Origin: a virus
Virus record (IMG/VR): IMGVR_UViG_3300028558_000100
Location: 1-22,899 of that record
Length of the DNA stretch: 22,899 nucleotides
Reading direction: 5' to 3' (one strand)
The notes under the pieces were generated by a model, which was not told the origin of the DNA, ran no database searches, and saw nothing but the letters and a program-made list of their open reading frames with translations. Every line of letters begins with the position of its first letter. Positions within the stretch are counted from its first letter, which is position 1. The position numbers and the translations under genes were made by a program. This document shows positions 8,647-18,100 of this stretch, in pieces.

Positions 8647-9969
8647 ATGGCGCTCGTCACCATCAACGGCTTCAACGTCATCCGGTCACACGTCACGCTG
8701 CCGCGCACGGGTCGGTGGGTGGCGGAATTCGTGGTCGACGCCGAGGACGCTAGCGAGCTCTCGGGCGAGCTCGAGGTGCAGCTGGGCTCGAAGCTCAAGT
8801 TGATCGGGACCGCCAAGCGCTCGGGGCCGTACCTGCAGAAGGTGAAGATCCAGGCCGTGGGTGGCGCGGGAGGCCTGCTCAAGCTCCTTCAGCCCAAGGC
8901 CTATCAGGGCGTGCCGTTGCGGATTCCGCTCTCGGACGCCCTCGCCGAAGTGGGCGAGTCGCTGTCGGCGGACGCAGACCCGAACGTCCTGGACACGGTG
9001 CTGCCGTTCTGGACGCGCATGGCCATGGAGCTCGGCGAAGAGCTGCGTGGCCTCACGCGCGCGGCGCCGGCGGGCACCACCGGGCGGATCTTGCCGGATG
9101 GGTCGTTCTGGATGGGCGTGGAGACGTGGCCGACGCAGGACATCGGTGACTTCAACCTCATCGACGATCACCGAGGGCAGGGCGAGGTGCTCTGCGGCAT
9201 TGAAGAGCCACAACTTCTGCCGGGCACGACGTTCCTGGACCGCCGCGTCCAGGAGGTCATCTACGAGATCGATTCGAACCGCGTGCGCATGAACGTGCAG
9301 TTCGTGCCCGACGCGACCGACGATGAACCGCAGCCGCTGACGATGGCCGCGGACCTGGACTACGTGGTTCAGAAGCAGCTGAAGCGCGCTCGCTACATGG
9401 GGGCTTACCCCGCGCGCGTGGTGCAGCAGAATGGCGACCTCTCGCTCGAGCTCGAGCTCGACTCCGAGGACGTTCCTGGCCTGAGCAACGTGCCGCTGCG
9501 CGCGTTCGCGCCGGGAGCAGTGGTGAAGGTCGCGCCGAACTCGCGCGTCACGGTGGTTTTCGAGAATGGAGATCCGCAGCATCCGGTCGCCGTGCAGTGG
9601 GACGCCGGCGCCGGCTCGGCGACGAACGTCGAGGTGCACGCGAGCGTGCAGGCCGCGCTCGTGGCGCCAGCGGTGATGCTGGGGAGCACGGAGGCGGTGG
9701 AACCGCTGGTGCTCGGGGCTACATGGAAGACCAGTGAGGACTCGTACGATCTGACTTTCTACGCAGCCTGCCAGGCGCTCCAGACCATTTTGGTGCCGCC
9801 ATCTGGACCGCCGCCGACGACAGTCGCAGAGCTCGTTGCCGCTCTGACAGTCTTCATCGGGGTGATTGGTGGGGCTCCGCAAACGCCCGTGCCAGCACCC
9901 ACCTCGGCCATCGGCAAGCGGCTGCTCGATCGGCTCGAGGAACTCTCCGCGGTGAGCAAGACGCTCTAG
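8647..9969 (+). CDS. Baseplate hub protein with fused OB-fold (gp44/gp45 or gpD/gpV-like)
   Basis: 440 residues. The N-terminal two-thirds (1-245) looks like a tail hub (Mu gp44, P2 gpD): a first strand-rich domain (VAEFVVDAEDASELSGELEV) and a long second domain with the FWTRMAMELGEELRG helix. Residues about 250-320 form a small OB-fold: GAYPARVV, then LRAFAPGAVVKVAP and VTVVFENGDPQHPVAVQW, with the E-x-G-x-P-x-x-P pattern of gp45/gpV spike bases. The C-terminus is Val/Ala-rich and helical. In Mu the hub and spike are separate genes; here they look fused, and no separate spike gene follows. The stop codon overlaps the minus-strand lipoprotein stop. Confidence 0.7.
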   Translation: MALVTINGFNVIRSHVTLPRTGRWVAEFVVDAEDASELSGELEVQLGSKLKLIGTAKRSGPYLQKVKIQAVGGAGGLLKLLQPKAYQGVPLRIPLSDALAEVGESLSADADPNVLDTVLPFWTRMAMELGEELRGLTRAAPAGTTGRILPDGSFWMGVETWPTQDIGDFNLIDDHRGQGEVLCGIEEPQLLPGTTFLDRRVQEVIYEIDSNRVRMNVQFVPDATDDEPQPLTMAADLDYVVQKQLKRARYMGAYPARVVQQNGDLSLELELDSEDVPGLSNVPLRAFAPGAVVKVAPNSRVTVVFENGDPQHPVAVQWDAGAGSATNVEVHASVQAALVAPAVMLGSTEAVEPLVLGATWKTSEDSYDLTFYAACQALQTILVPPSGPPPTTVAELVAALTVFIGVIGGAPQTPVPAPTSAIGKRLLDRLEELSAVSKTL

Positions 9970-10517
9970 CGGTACTCGAGGTGCAGCGGTCCCTTCCAGT
10001 CGGAGGGTGGCGAAGGCGCCTGGGTGACGGTGCTGAAGTCGATGACGTTCAGGCTCGAAAACTGGGCCACTAAATCAGAATCGCATCCGCCATCGGAGAG
10101 CATCACTGCAGCAAGACTTGGATCGGCGACGAAGGCCGACGATGCGGCCGGACGCTCCCAGTATCCGTCCTGGCCTTGGATCGTGAAGACCTCGAGCGGA
10201 TAGGGCGAGCCGAGGACTCGCGCATCGGCGGGAATGAGCCTCTGAGAACCTGTGCACTGCGCGTTGTCGTATCCGACGAGCATGCTCGGAGGCACGACAG
10301 AGCCCGTTGTCACGTTGACCGGATACATGTCGTTCGAAGCATCGAGATGGTGAGCGAAGCCATAGAGGTCCACGAAGCCGTCCAGCGTGACCTGGGCTCC
10401 AGTCGAGTCCACCCAGACGATGTTCTTCGCATTCGGTCCGGGCGGGCCAACGGGGCCTTGCTTGCCCTCGCACGCCGCGAACAGCAGCGCCGCCGCGACC
10501 GTGATGTTCCGAAGCAT
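9966..10517 (-). CDS. Antisense collagen-like lipoprotein (moron)
   Basis: 183 residues on the minus strand, inside the plus-strand baseplate operon. The start at 10517 is chosen because TTGGAG precedes it by about 6 nt and it gives a proper signal: MLRNITVAAALLFAAC, with a lipobox ending at Cys16. Directly after come four Gly-X-Y triplets (GKQGPVGPPGPN, 18-29), as in short collagen-like lipoproteins of myxobacteria. The rest is a probably folded extracellular domain with aromatic strands and a C-terminal EYR. An upstream in-frame start would extend it to 10712 but would bury the signal peptide. Hand counts of sampled lines give about 52-62% GC against 68-70% in flanking baseplate genes, suggesting separate acquisition. 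Function unknown; likely expressed in the lysogen and displayed on the envelope. Confidence 0.75.
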   Translation of the reverse strand: MLRNITVAAALLFAACEGKQGPVGPPGPNAKNIVWVDSTGAQVTLDGFVDLYGFAHHLDASNDMYPVNVTTGSVVPPSMLVGYDNAQCTGSQRLIPADARVLGSPYPLEVFTIQGQDGYWERPAASSAFVADPSLAAVMLSDGGCDSDLVAQFSSLNVIDFSTVTQAPSPPSDWKGPLHLEYR

Positions 10518-14041: not shown

Positions 14042-15217
14042 ATGCCCAAGCACCTCACCCTCGCGGCCCTCGCGGCCGTCGCCATGCTCTGCGCCCCCGA
14101 GGCGGGCGCCACCAGCTACGTCTACGACGCGGGAGCGGACCTCGACGTCGACGGCGGGCAGTACCCGGACGGCGGGCAGATCCCCTGCGCGCCGAAGTCG
14201 AACTGGGCGGAGATGCCCGCGATTCCGGCCTGGCAGAAGGTCGTGGCCTACGAGGTGAACAAGTACCGCGGTGCAATCAGCGACGAGCGCGACGCCACGG
14301 TGCATGGCTACTTCCACGGCCTCGCGGACCAGGGCGTCACGCCGGTGCCGGCGCCCGCGGACGGCGTGCGCGAGTTCGCAATGGACGGTGGGCTGTACGG
14401 CGAGTACCCGGACGCTGGCGTGTTCCGCATCGGCGGCGCCGCAGGCTGGGTGTCCGCGTTCGACTGCGACTTCACCGCGCAGTCGCCGCAGAGCGTGAGC
14501 TCCAACGGGACGATGACCGTCTGTGGCGTGACTGCCGACGTGCAGGTCACCAACGGCGGGCACACCTACGCGAGCGCGATCGCCGTGCTCCCGGACGCTG
14601 GCGGGCTCAGCATTATCGACAACTGCGCGTACAGCGGCTCCAGCGGACTGCCGCTCGTCTCGGATGCAGGCGCAACCAACACCACGCCGCGCTTCGTATT
14701 CGGGCTCGACGCGCTCATCCCGAATCTGAGCTCGTCGACGGCCATCCGGGTGACCACTTGGAACGCGCCCTGGAGCGGCACGATCACGAACGACGGCTTC
14801 ATGGTCGCCGTGGACAACGGCGGAAACAACAGCGGCAACTTCGCTCTGTACGGCTACGGTGAGGGATACACAAACTCGGCCGGTTCGAAATACATGCAGT
14901 GGTCGAACCAGGAAGCCAGCAGCACAGCCACGAACGTCGCGGGGCAGCTGGACGTGATGGAGCAGATGACGATCAACCGCGGGATGATGAACCAGGACGC
15001 GCTCTTCTCGTCTGGGTCGACCACGACGTTTCCGCCCGTCGAGGACAGCTTCTCCGCGCGCGCCATCATGAGCGTCTCGTCCAGCATCACCGCGCTGAAC
15101 TGGACGTACACGGCCGCGTCGCCGGCGAACTTCCTCGCTGGTCTTGCGTGCCCGTGCGGCAACTCCGGCGTCACGCCCTGCACCGTGCGGCGCCTGAAGA
15201 TCGAGTACCGGCCGTAG
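14042..15217 (+). CDS. Predicted exported protein, function unknown
   Basis: 391 residues beginning MPKHLTLAALAAVAMLC and a likely signal peptidase I site after AGA (21-23), so it is probably sent to the periplasm or beyond. The mature part is strand-rich, has scattered cysteines (a C-P-C near the end), and contains seven D-A-G or D-G-G turns, for example YDAG, VDGG, PDGG and PDAG. No known enzymatic motif. The end is basic (VRRLKIEYRP). It follows the tail fibre in the operon, where a fibre chaperone or second fibre would be expected. Whether it joins the virion is unknown; a signal peptide is unusual for a virion part. Not recognised as any family. Confidence 0.7.
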   Translation: MPKHLTLAALAAVAMLCAPEAGATSYVYDAGADLDVDGGQYPDGGQIPCAPKSNWAEMPAIPAWQKVVAYEVNKYRGAISDERDATVHGYFHGLADQGVTPVPAPADGVREFAMDGGLYGEYPDAGVFRIGGAAGWVSAFDCDFTAQSPQSVSSNGTMTVCGVTADVQVTNGGHTYASAIAVLPDAGGLSIIDNCAYSGSSGLPLVSDAGATNTTPRFVFGLDALIPNLSSSTAIRVTTWNAPWSGTITNDGFMVAVDNGGNNSGNFALYGYGEGYTNSAGSKYMQWSNQEASSTATNVAGQLDVMEQMTINRGMMNQDALFSSGSTTTFPPVEDSFSARAIMSVSSSITALNWTYTAASPANFLAGLACPCGNSGVTPCTVRRLKIEYRP

Positions 15218-15282
15218 CAGGGCGGGGCACCTCACCACTCGAAGCACATCGGCTGCGCCTCGCGCGCGGCATGGAGACCCTC

Positions 15283-15774
15283 ATGCGTCGAACGCTCATC
15301 GGCTGCGCTTGCTTGGCGGCCACAATCGTCGGGGCCGCGTTCCTGTTCGGCAGGCCCGCCGACGCCTCGCCCGTGCGCCAGGTCGCGGAGCTGGTGCGCG
15401 CGGGCATCAACTCGATGGGCTCGCAGACCGTGGCTCCGGCGCCGCCTGCACCCGCTGACCCGCTCAACTGCGCCATGCCGAACGACGGCGGCAGCTGCTG
15501 CATCATCTTCCAGCACACGGGGCCGATGCAGATCGCCGTGACGTGCCGATCGGGCACGAATGGGACCGACTGCGATCTACGGAAGACGACTTCGTTCGGC
15601 GACGGCGGCGTGCCCGGCATCTACCCCGACGCGGGCGGCCCCTACGTGCAGCTTGGCGGCGGGAACCTCATCCAGGCGAACACGACCCGCTACATGCAGG
15701 TGGCGGCGAACATCGACACGATCTGCGAAGGCACGCCCGACGGCGGCACGAACCAGGTGGCGGGGCTCCAGTGA
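15283..15774 (+). CDS. Predicted exported small cysteine-rich protein
   Basis: 163 residues from ATG 15283, preferred over the in-frame ATG at 15271 because GGAG lies 6 nt upstream and it starts MRRTLIGCAC, a good signal peptide leading to a site near ADA (26-28). The mature chain has six cysteines that could form three disulfides (LNC, SCC, TC, DC, IC), consistent with an oxidising periplasm. It has four D-A-G or D-G-G turns, including GDGG and PDAGG. Its stop overlaps the next start in TGATG. Not recognised as any family. Confidence 0.65.
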   Translation: MRRTLIGCACLAATIVGAAFLFGRPADASPVRQVAELVRAGINSMGSQTVAPAPPAPADPLNCAMPNDGGSCCIIFQHTGPMQIAVTCRSGTNGTDCDLRKTTSFGDGGVPGIYPDAGGPYVQLGGGNLIQANTTRYMQVAANIDTICEGTPDGGTNQVAGLQ

Positions 15775-16112
15775 TGCGCGGGGTGTTGATCACCGCTGCT
15801 CTCGCGGCGCTCACGTCGACGACGCTACCCATCTACGTGCAGGACACGCCTGAGCCGTACCCGACGTCGATCGAGACGCTGATTCAGGTCGAGGACGTCC
15901 AGCAGCAGCTCAACGCCGGCCCCTACCACGGCCTCGCCATCCAGTCCCGCCCCCCCGCGGTCCCCGATGGCGGCCTCGCCACATTCGCGCACCTCAACGA
16001 CGCGGGCGCTCCGGTGCAGGCGCTCGTGCTCCCCGACGGCGGCGTTTACGACTACCTCGGCATCGGCGGACCCATCGCGCCGCAGTCGGCGACGCGGCTG
16101 GTGGAGGCGTAA
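15774..16112 (+). CDS. Small protein with hydrophobic N-terminus, D-G-G-rich
   Basis: 112 residues starting MRGVLITAALAALTSTTLPIYVQD. The first 20 residues are hydrophobic and could be a signal peptide or an uncleaved anchor; no strong cleavage site is obvious. The chain contains PDGG twice and NDAG once, each in a short strand context (for example LPDGGVYDYLG). Overlaps both neighbours by one base (TGATG and TAATG), so it is translated with them. Its role is unknown. Confidence 0.6.
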   Translation: MRGVLITAALAALTSTTLPIYVQDTPEPYPTSIETLIQVEDVQQQLNAGPYHGLAIQSRPPAVPDGGLATFAHLNDAGAPVQALVLPDGGVYDYLGIGGPIAPQSATRLVEA

Positions 16113-18100
16113 TGCGAACTCTCCTCGCGCTGCTCGTCCTTTCCCTGTCCGCCCCCGCCTACGCCCAGTGCGGCCCCGACGGCATGGATAGCGTGTGCGG
16201 GCCGGGGCGGCAGAACAGCATCCCTGCGCCCGTTTTCCTTTTCGCCGCTCCCTCCGCATCCGATCCCGCATCGCTGACCGCCTCCACGGGGCAGACCGCC
16301 ACCTGCACGGGTGGCTTTCCCGGCTCGCTCATGGCGGACGGCGGCCTGCTCGCGTACTCGGTCAATGGCCATTGCCGCGTCGACTATCGCGGCGTCGTGA
16401 GCGAGGAGGCTCGCCACAACTGGATCGCCCAACCGCTCGCGCTCAACAACGCTGCGTGGACGCACCAGCACAGTCCGTCGATCACCGCAGACGCCTGCAC
16501 GTTCATCGACGGCACCGCGACGGCCGATCTCGTGGTGAGCGGCGGCAGTGACGATTTCAGCGCCACCTATCAGGCGTTCTCATCTCCCGACGCAGGCCCG
16601 TGGACGCTGAGCGGGTGGCCATCTGGCTCGGACGCCGGGCCCAGTCTCGACATGGAGCGTAGCGGCGGCACGGCGTTCTCCTCGTGCGCCTGCTCTGTCG
16701 ATGCTCCCTACCTCTGCTACGGCTCAGGTGGAACGGACTGCTACGCGCAGTTCAACAAGGCCGTTGGACCGTCGCCGGCTCGCCTCTCGGTGACGACGGC
16801 CGACTCGTCGAATCTCACGTCGCTGCTGGGGATCGTCACGCCCGGCCAGTACGGAGCGGCGTCGAACGCTCCCGGCGCGTCTTCCTGCTGGGGCGGCATC
16901 CAGCTTGAGTACGGGCAGTTCGCCACCACGTTCATTCCAGACGGCGGCTCTCGCGCGGCAGACGTGATCGACTGGGGCGCCGTCACCCTCAGCACCACGC
17001 CGAGCTTTTCGGCGGCGGTGCAGCTTGAGGGTCTGCCGGTGGTCGGTACGGCCATGGTCGCAGACCTCACCGATGGCACGCACTCGTGGACGATCGCGGT
17101 GAATCCCGCCGGCACCGTTACCTGCTCCTATGGCGTGAACACCGACACCAGCTCGGCCACCGTCACGCCGGGCATGGTTGAGAGCGTGGCCTGCTCGTAC
17201 AACGGCACGGCGATCCAGACCTCGGTTCACGGCGTCACACACAGCACGGCCGCGAGCTTCACGCCGGCCACGAGTTTCACGCACCTCTACATGGGCAGCG
17301 ACGGCACGACGAACCAGCTCAACGGGTTCGTCTCTGCGGCGTGCGCGTCGAAGATCTCCACCCAATGCACGAGTTCCAGCGCGCCGAGCGTTCCCGCTTC
17401 GGGGCTCGTCTACTGGTTCGACGCCGACGACGTGGATGGCAGCAACAACTCCACGATGTTCACGGGCGCGTCCGTTTCGACCTGGGTCAACCTCGGCAGC
17501 GGAGAGAGCGGCACGGGAAACACCGCGCCGATGTTCATCTCGAATTTCGTCTACGGACATCCAGCCGTGAATCTCTCTGGGTCCACGCAGATGATCGACA
17601 TGGGCGCGGGCAGCGAGAGCACCGCGGCGTTCCTCCACCAGACGGCCGTGTTCGACATCGTGATCGCGCTACAGGGCGTGCGCTACACCGCGAGCAATCC
17701 GTTGCTCGACACGGACGAAAACGGATCGCTCGGAACCGGGCTCGACATCTCCGTCGACTCCAGCGGCCACCCGATCGCGCGCATCGCGTCCTCGGGAACT
17801 GCGGTTGTGAACTACACCGCCACGCACACGGCGCTTCCGCTGTTCTCGTGGGGGATCATCGAGGTGACCGGCGACGGGTCTTCGATCTCCATCTCCACCG
17901 ACATGCAGAAATTCGAGAGCGCGCCCATCACGGGTGCCCTGCCCGCAGGGATCTCCACCGACCATCTCTTCATCGGCGGCTGGAACAGCACGGCCGGCTG
18001 GGACGGCTCGATCGAAGGCGCGCTTATCTACAACCGCCAGCTCACGGCTGCCGAGCGCCTCGGCCTGAAGCAGTTGCTTGCACAGAGGGCCGGGCTATGA
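16112..18100 (+). CDS. Exported protein with fibre-type lectin and LamG-like domains
   Basis: 662 residues, the largest in this block. It begins with a clear signal peptide, MRTLLALLVLSLSAPAYA, with cleavage after A18. Residues about 98-285 form a phage fibre/carbohydrate-binding-like domain: RHNWIAQPLALNNAAWTH at the start and GIQLEYGQFATTFIPDGGS-RAADV at the end, a pattern common in tail fibres. Residues 290-415 and 430-662 are two concanavalin A/LamG-like beta-sandwiches, the second ending in GGWNSTAGWDGSIEGALIYNR and a short LTAAERLGL helix. Domains suggest glycan binding. A fibre would not normally carry a signal peptide, so this may be an exported surface lectin. Stop overlaps the SGNH start (ATGA). 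Confidence 0.75.
   Translation: MRTLLALLVLSLSAPAYAQCGPDGMDSVCGPGRQNSIPAPVFLFAAPSASDPASLTASTGQTATCTGGFPGSLMADGGLLAYSVNGHCRVDYRGVVSEEARHNWIAQPLALNNAAWTHQHSPSITADACTFIDGTATADLVVSGGSDDFSATYQAFSSPDAGPWTLSGWPSGSDAGPSLDMERSGGTAFSSCACSVDAPYLCYGSGGTDCYAQFNKAVGPSPARLSVTTADSSNLTSLLGIVTPGQYGAASNAPGASSCWGGIQLEYGQFATTFIPDGGSRAADVIDWGAVTLSTTPSFSAAVQLEGLPVVGTAMVADLTDGTHSWTIAVNPAGTVTCSYGVNTDTSSATVTPGMVESVACSYNGTAIQTSVHGVTHSTAASFTPATSFTHLYMGSDGTTNQLNGFVSAACASKISTQCTSSSAPSVPASGLVYWFDADDVDGSNNSTMFTGASVSTWVNLGSGESGTGNTAPMFISNFVYGHPAVNLSGSTQMIDMGAGSESTAAFLHQTAVFDIVIALQGVRYTASNPLLDTDENGSLGTGLDISVDSSGHPIARIASSGTAVVNYTATHTALPLFSWGIIEVTGDGSSISISTDMQKFESAPITGALPAGISTDHLFIGGWNSTAGWDGSIEGALIYNRQLTAAERLGLKQLLAQRAGL

Follow-up and report, generated by a model that had tools for sequence, protein, structure and literature searches.

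Candidate Sec-exported fibre-type proteins encoded between the tail and lysis genes of a temperate contractile-tailed phage

According to textbook teaching, tailed phages assemble entirely in the cytoplasm. They are not known to export their fibres, and no account of a tailed phage doing so turned up in a search of the open-access literature. Here we analyze four consecutive genes in a fibre region whose products all begin like Sec substrates. The genes lie in the window, i.e. the whole stretch of 22,899 nt of viral DNA (67% GC) that we analyzed, which is also contained in IMG/VR 3300028573_000019 (58,193 b) at ~20,534-43,432. The phage is temperate and contractile-tailed, with a sheath, baseplate J, an integrase-like gene, and an XRE-type repressor (contig G001), and it resembles Myxococcus phage Mx4, whose baseplate and tail genes are homologous and likewise ordered (39.5% identity for baseplate J and 36% for tail I). 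Since the baseplate J proteins of Thermus and Meiothermus phages are as similar (39-43%, slightly above the Mx4 figure), and two scans of genome contigs gave no prophage, we can only infer the host from sequence similarity; it is likely a member of the Myxococcota.

Four genes with Sec-type N-termini behind a conventional fibre gene

In the window, baseplate J and tail I are followed by P0006, a fibre without a signal peptide (SP), then by P0001-P0004, by P0005, an SGNH hydrolase, and by the lysis genes (Table 1). P0006 contains 2 Cys and matches a PHROG virion structural protein (7e-5), and its N-terminal 79 aa are weakly similar to Mx4 p67 (24%, E 0.013). Genes were called with a hand-made gene caller, and P0001-P0004 had good coding scores (126, 49, 39, and 142) and coding-like codon usage. 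The sequence-only reading had noted good SPs at 14042, 15283, and 16112, a hydrophobic start at 15774, and one-base overlaps coupling the last three genes, all of which we confirmed: the overlaps are TGATG at 15772-15776 (P0002/P0003) and TAATG at 16110-16114 (P0003/P0004), and P0005 is coupled to P0004 by an ATGA overlap at 18097. SD sequences accompany the starts at 15283 and 16112; at 15283, GGAGA lies ~5 nt upstream, and an alternative start at 15271 adds METL only. A start-codon artefact was rejected as the source of the SPs in the block.

Table 1. Features of the four-gene block and its neighbours (window coordinates)
Feature	Coordinates	Strand	Description	Evidence or context
P0006	13058..13987	+	Conventional SP-less tail fibre, complete	Context gene, not exported; downstream of Mx4-like baseplate J and tail I genes
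P0001	14042..15217	+	391 aa; Sec SP ~14042-14110 (EAGA/TSY); 7 Cys in mature part	
P0002	15283..15774	+	163 aa, small; Sec SP ~15283-15366 (PADA/SPV); 6 Cys in mature part	
P0003	15774..16112	+	112 aa; hydrophobic N-terminus, SP likely, ambiguous cleavage site; 0 Cys	
P0004	16112..18100	+	662 aa; Sec SP ~16112-16165 (PAYA/QCG); 14 Cys in mature part	
P0004 fibre adhesin domain	16247..17386	+	Cys-rich (aa 46-425); ends in conserved C-x6/7-C	Alignments A1, A4, A10
P0004 Laminin_G_3 domain	17702..18055	+		Pfam PF13385 E 3.9e-7, above gathering score
P0005	18097..18678	+	SGNH/GDSL hydrolase, no SP, ATGA-coupled to P0004	Pfam PF13472 E 2.3e-20

For SP scoring we used a home-made rule predictor; the 14 E. 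coli SPs that served for calibration scored 7.2-10.4, and P0001-P0004 scored 9.6, 8.4, 8.2, and 10.7, respectively. By this rule the N-termini have the n-h-c structure and AxA-type site of Sec/SPase I substrates. The SPs of P0001, P0002 (PADA/SPVRQ), and P0004 are convincing, with the cleavage sites of P0002 and P0004 set by eye and that of P0002 placed 10 residues earlier by the rule; P0003, which has a good h-region, is the weakest of the four. As a null, 1.5% of internal 60-mers from the same phage passed the rule, and SP-like starts were found in 3.3% of genes of at least 100 aa from 78 unrelated fibre loci and in 6.0% of those from mixed control phages. At these control rates, four SPs in series would occur by chance at ~1e-6 to 1e-5 per position. 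Whole-protein shuffles reached the observed score 4, 26, 22, and 0 times (each of 2000) for P0001-P0004. A predicted SP in all four sets them apart from conventional fibres, and none contains the lipobox of the Cor/Llp exclusion lipoproteins.

In the tail operon, an antisense gene (9966-10517, -) encodes a lipoprotein-like product with a collagen-like start (MLRNITVAAALLFAAC/EGKQGPVGPPGP) and is a candidate conversion moron; antisense lipoprotein-like genes lie near the fibre regions of Mx4 and Mx8 as well. D-A/G-G tripeptides (PDGG, PDAGG, NDAG) are strongly enriched in SP proteins (0.69 per 100 aa vs 0.09 in SP-less cohort genes), with 1.9, 2.8, 3.0, and 0.6 per 100 aa in P0001-P0004.

Fibre homology of P0004 and a recurring cysteine-rich cassette

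Tail-fibre-adhesin homology was found for P0004 only. Its residues 46-425 match proteins of MW202637 and MW202477 (tblastn and profile alignment; hhalign 95.9%, E 6e-9), through which the P0004 branch connects to tail fibres of RcapMu, cyanophages, Nonlabens phage P12024S, and MW202748; the branch also matches PHROG tail family 5939. The terminal C-x6/7-C pair is common to P0004, P0007, and P0011, and P0004 closes with a LamG lectin-like domain, the sole Pfam match among P0001-P0004, none of which matched OmpX/Lom. The structural model of P0004 is poor (pLDDT 45) and its fold matches, with a Pseudomonas phage tail fibre/baseplate protein at the top and CBM-type lectins lower, offer a hint only; a PDB sequence search gave no significant match. 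For P0001 and P0002 there were no relatives in PHROGs, Pfam, or phage tblastn, and only the same phage in IMG/VR; P0003 had none in PHROGs or Pfam. Comparisons of the profiles of all three with SP families were negative, and a single-sequence AlphaFold model of P0001 reached a pLDDT of 30. A fibre-type role for P0001-P0003 is thus putative, suggested only by their position and SPs.

The sequence-only reading held that homologues without a conserved SP would speak against export. In the P0004 branch, found in ~13 other viral genomes and rich in Cys, the SP is almost always kept, whereas it is absent from ordinary low-Cys fibres. Specifically, the seven SP-type homologues that we compared contain 1.5-2.7% Cys and conserved Cys pairs, and 6/7 pass the SP rule; the homologue in L017 has a short hydrophobic start below the SP threshold, as do a few other relatives with very short N-termini, and that of L039 lacks an SP start as called. 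Ordinary fibre homologues lack an SP in 9/9 instances and contain 0-0.85% Cys. Enrichment of Cys together with an SP is what export into an oxidising compartment would predict.

Neighbouring tail-fibre-type genes with export signals occur in ~15 further phages, among them Mx8, a laboratory phage. The cassette consists of a small SP protein, an SP fibre-domain protein, and an SP or membrane-anchored Cys-rich protein ahead of the lysis genes, and it is present in the IMG/VR contigs L013-L017, L031, and L034-L043 and in the complete genomes MW202477 and MW202637. Every IMG/VR phage with the P0004 branch (L013-L017, L031, L034-L039, L043), like these two complete genomes, carries one or, mostly, a run of SP Cys-rich genes, flanked on one side by internal or tail virion genes with almost no Cys and on the other by the lysis genes. 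Among same-strand genes of at least 100 aa at 12 cassette loci, 35.7% were SP-like, compared with the 3.3% and 6.0% of the control loci above, and the median Cys content was 3.13% in genes with an SP vs 0.26% in those without (p=2e-11). A second fibre-region family bears an SP and Cys in L013:9312, L017:3884, and L035:8753, but its counterpart in MW202795, encoded in the structural module a few genes beyond that for the major capsid protein, has neither SP nor Cys. We recognised no SP-less fibre gene in MW202477 or MW202637; in the former, an SP-bearing structural-module gene matches a PHROG tail fibre (E 6.6e-6), and in the latter an SP-bearing gene has a fibre-like N-terminal motif. L017 and L036 encode a T7-like SP-less fibre plus the SP array, just as the window combines its SP-less fibre, P0006, with an array.

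Several other genes in these regions deserve mention. A family of ~265 aa with an N-terminal hydrophobic segment and 10-12 Cys directly follows the exported fibre gene (L013:7251-8036, L014:7188-7994, L011:7062-7853, L043:6001-6801; alignment A5), and its L014 member had no Pfam or PHROG match. In MW202637, an SP-bearing 146-aa Cys protein is encoded immediately after the major capsid gene (L045:21412-21852), so that head decoration could be exported as well, and an SP-bearing 170-aa protein within the cassette (L009:7077-7589) contains an HExxH motif (HELFHVAQG) and is perhaps an exported metallopeptidase. Many SPs in the fibre regions of L013-L017 and L034-L038 are only 10-12 residues long and have no charge in the n-region (M-L-x-x-L-L-x-L-A-Q), which may be a kind of SP peculiar to the host.

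The cultured M. xanthus phages Mx8 and Mx9

In Mx8, the SP genes p64, p66, and p67 occupy the same pre-lysis slot. Mx8 p64 consists of a 28-aa SP and a fibre N-terminal domain, and its predicted cleavage exposes TRNSVGTYTLP, exactly where SP-less homologues begin. Among 80 viral proteins with this domain, 78 start 1-2 residues before it and have no SP; the only exceptions are Mx8 and L063, both with an SP that is cleaved, by prediction, at the domain boundary. The p64 counterpart in Mx9, p14 (annotated as tail fibre), conserves the SP and the predicted cleavage at the boundary. In the slot of P0005, both phages encode an SGNH-type protein with an SP, namely Mx8 p67 and Mx9 p15, p67 scoring below the Pfam gathering score. 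Mx8 p64-p67 and Mx9 p14-p15 thus share with the window an SP fibre-type protein in the pre-lysis slot together with an SGNH-type gene, but their fibre N-domain differs from that of P0004, p64 has fewer Cys, and their SGNH proteins have an SP, which P0005 lacks.

These data also bear on whether the hydrophobic N-termini are export signals at all, rather than membrane-insertion or assembly segments of the virion or products of start calling. The N-termini of some relatives are indeed very short, uncharged, and hydrophobic (MLTALLLILAQ), atypical of E. coli SPs. We nonetheless regard this reading as very improbable given that the window, Mx8, and L063 show the n-h-c structure with AxA sites, and given the enrichment of Cys only in company with an SP, the predicted cleavage at the domain start in Mx8 and L063, and the SD sequences at two of the block's starts. 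Because the SPs, the fibre homology of P0004, the association of Cys with SPs, the recurrence of the cassette, and the precise insertion of an SP in Mx8 are independent patterns, the comparative sequence evidence strongly suggests that Myxococcota-type phages export fibre-type proteins.

Possible destinations: virion adhesins or envelope proteins

We infer that the block products are expressed late, exported, disulfide-bonded, and sugar-binding. We give an even chance to the proposal that the block encodes Sec-exported, mostly disulfide-bonded, carbohydrate-binding fibre-type proteins, most likely accessory adhesins that join progeny virions at lysis. The proteins would be made late, cross the inner membrane via Sec, lose their SP, and fold in the oxidising periplasm; once lysis opens the envelope, the mature adhesins would bind progeny virions, or their receptor-facing tips, and act alongside the conventional cytoplasmic fibre P0006, with the adjacent SGNH esterase P0005 as a possible partner enzyme on envelope polysaccharide. 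We favour a place on the virion because, in the fibre slot, these proteins stand in for fibres or add to them, and because Mx8 p64 keeps the domain that starts virion fibres. The block resembles conventional fibres (RcapMu gp58, PHROG 5939 and 1640, T7-like gp17) in the domain homology of P0004 and in its slot between tail or internal virion genes and lysis, but differs from these in its SPs, high Cys content, and predicted periplasmic export. We rejected the idea that the block encodes lysis proteins: holins and spanins are encoded beyond it and do not look like its products.

Given the complete SP-less P0006 of the window phage and the T7-like SP-less fibres of L017 and L036, the virions of these phages may lack the exported proteins. 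These could instead stay in the periplasm or outer membrane, where, by binding the polysaccharide that serves the phage as receptor or by altering it, they would block superinfection and re-adsorption of progeny to debris. T5 Llp, Cor-type lipoproteins, and a neuraminidase are known to mask or destroy phage receptors. In coliphages, exclusion lipoproteins are established near tail or lysis genes (PMC9586334, PMC11893012), and a lipobox is present in P0007, the relative from MW202637; the fibre domain is moreover an adhesin domain, LamG/CBM-like, next to an SGNH esterase. Llp, Cor, and the mEpimmI Lpp resemble the block in being exported phage proteins, encoded close to tail or lysis genes and able to act on receptors, but they are small single lipoproteins without fibre domains. 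Exclusion proteins usually come from one small gene, whereas here 4-6 genes lie in series. The late position, the virion-fibre domain of p64, and the lack of another fibre candidate in MW202477 and MW202637 also argue against this reading. We consider receptor masking or release possible though somewhat doubtful, and a serious rival nonetheless, since the window also encodes a conventional fibre and Llp, Cor, and Lom set precedents.

Another precedent is lambda Lom, which has an SP and is encoded between J and the fibre gene (PMC12309495). The block might accordingly comprise lysogenic-conversion morons, i.e. surface proteins that the prophage makes and that change the host's surface or behaviour, which would suit a phage with an integrase-like gene and an XRE-type repressor. 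Lom resembles the block as an SP gene inside the tail region of a temperate phage, but it is a single-gene outer-membrane beta-barrel expressed in lysogens. Furthermore, we found no promoter-like site in the region (a weak test at this GC range), the genes are tightly coupled to the late operon, and the same cassette occurs in MW202477 and MW202637, which are annotated with DNA polymerase and without integrase. We therefore find conversion unlikely. Overall, the sequence-only reading is partly supported: homology, Cys content, and recurrence in unrelated phages, cultured Mx8 among them, speak for the exported fibre-region proteins and, possibly, the periplasm-matured adhesin that it proposed; the functions it preferred (conversion, receptor masking, and superinfection exclusion) are less favoured because of the late structural-to-lysis slot and the tail-fibre type of P0004 and its Mx8 counterpart.

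Returning to virion adhesins, we put at slightly below even the chance that there is a whole class of tailed phages, probably of Myxococcota, whose virion adhesins are made via Sec, processed by SPase, given their disulfides in the periplasm, and fastened to virions only as these leave through the envelope opened at lysis. If true, tailed phages would have a second, post-lytic assembly compartment, disulfide-rich phage adhesins would have a reason, and receptor-binding proteins would have to be sought among the SP genes that pipelines label as host-like or hypothetical. If the proteins only coat the envelope, the multi-gene cassette of exported adhesins would still be a system for exclusion or release, and one larger than the single lipoproteins known to date. 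As Mx8 is in culture, the idea of exported fibres is testable now.
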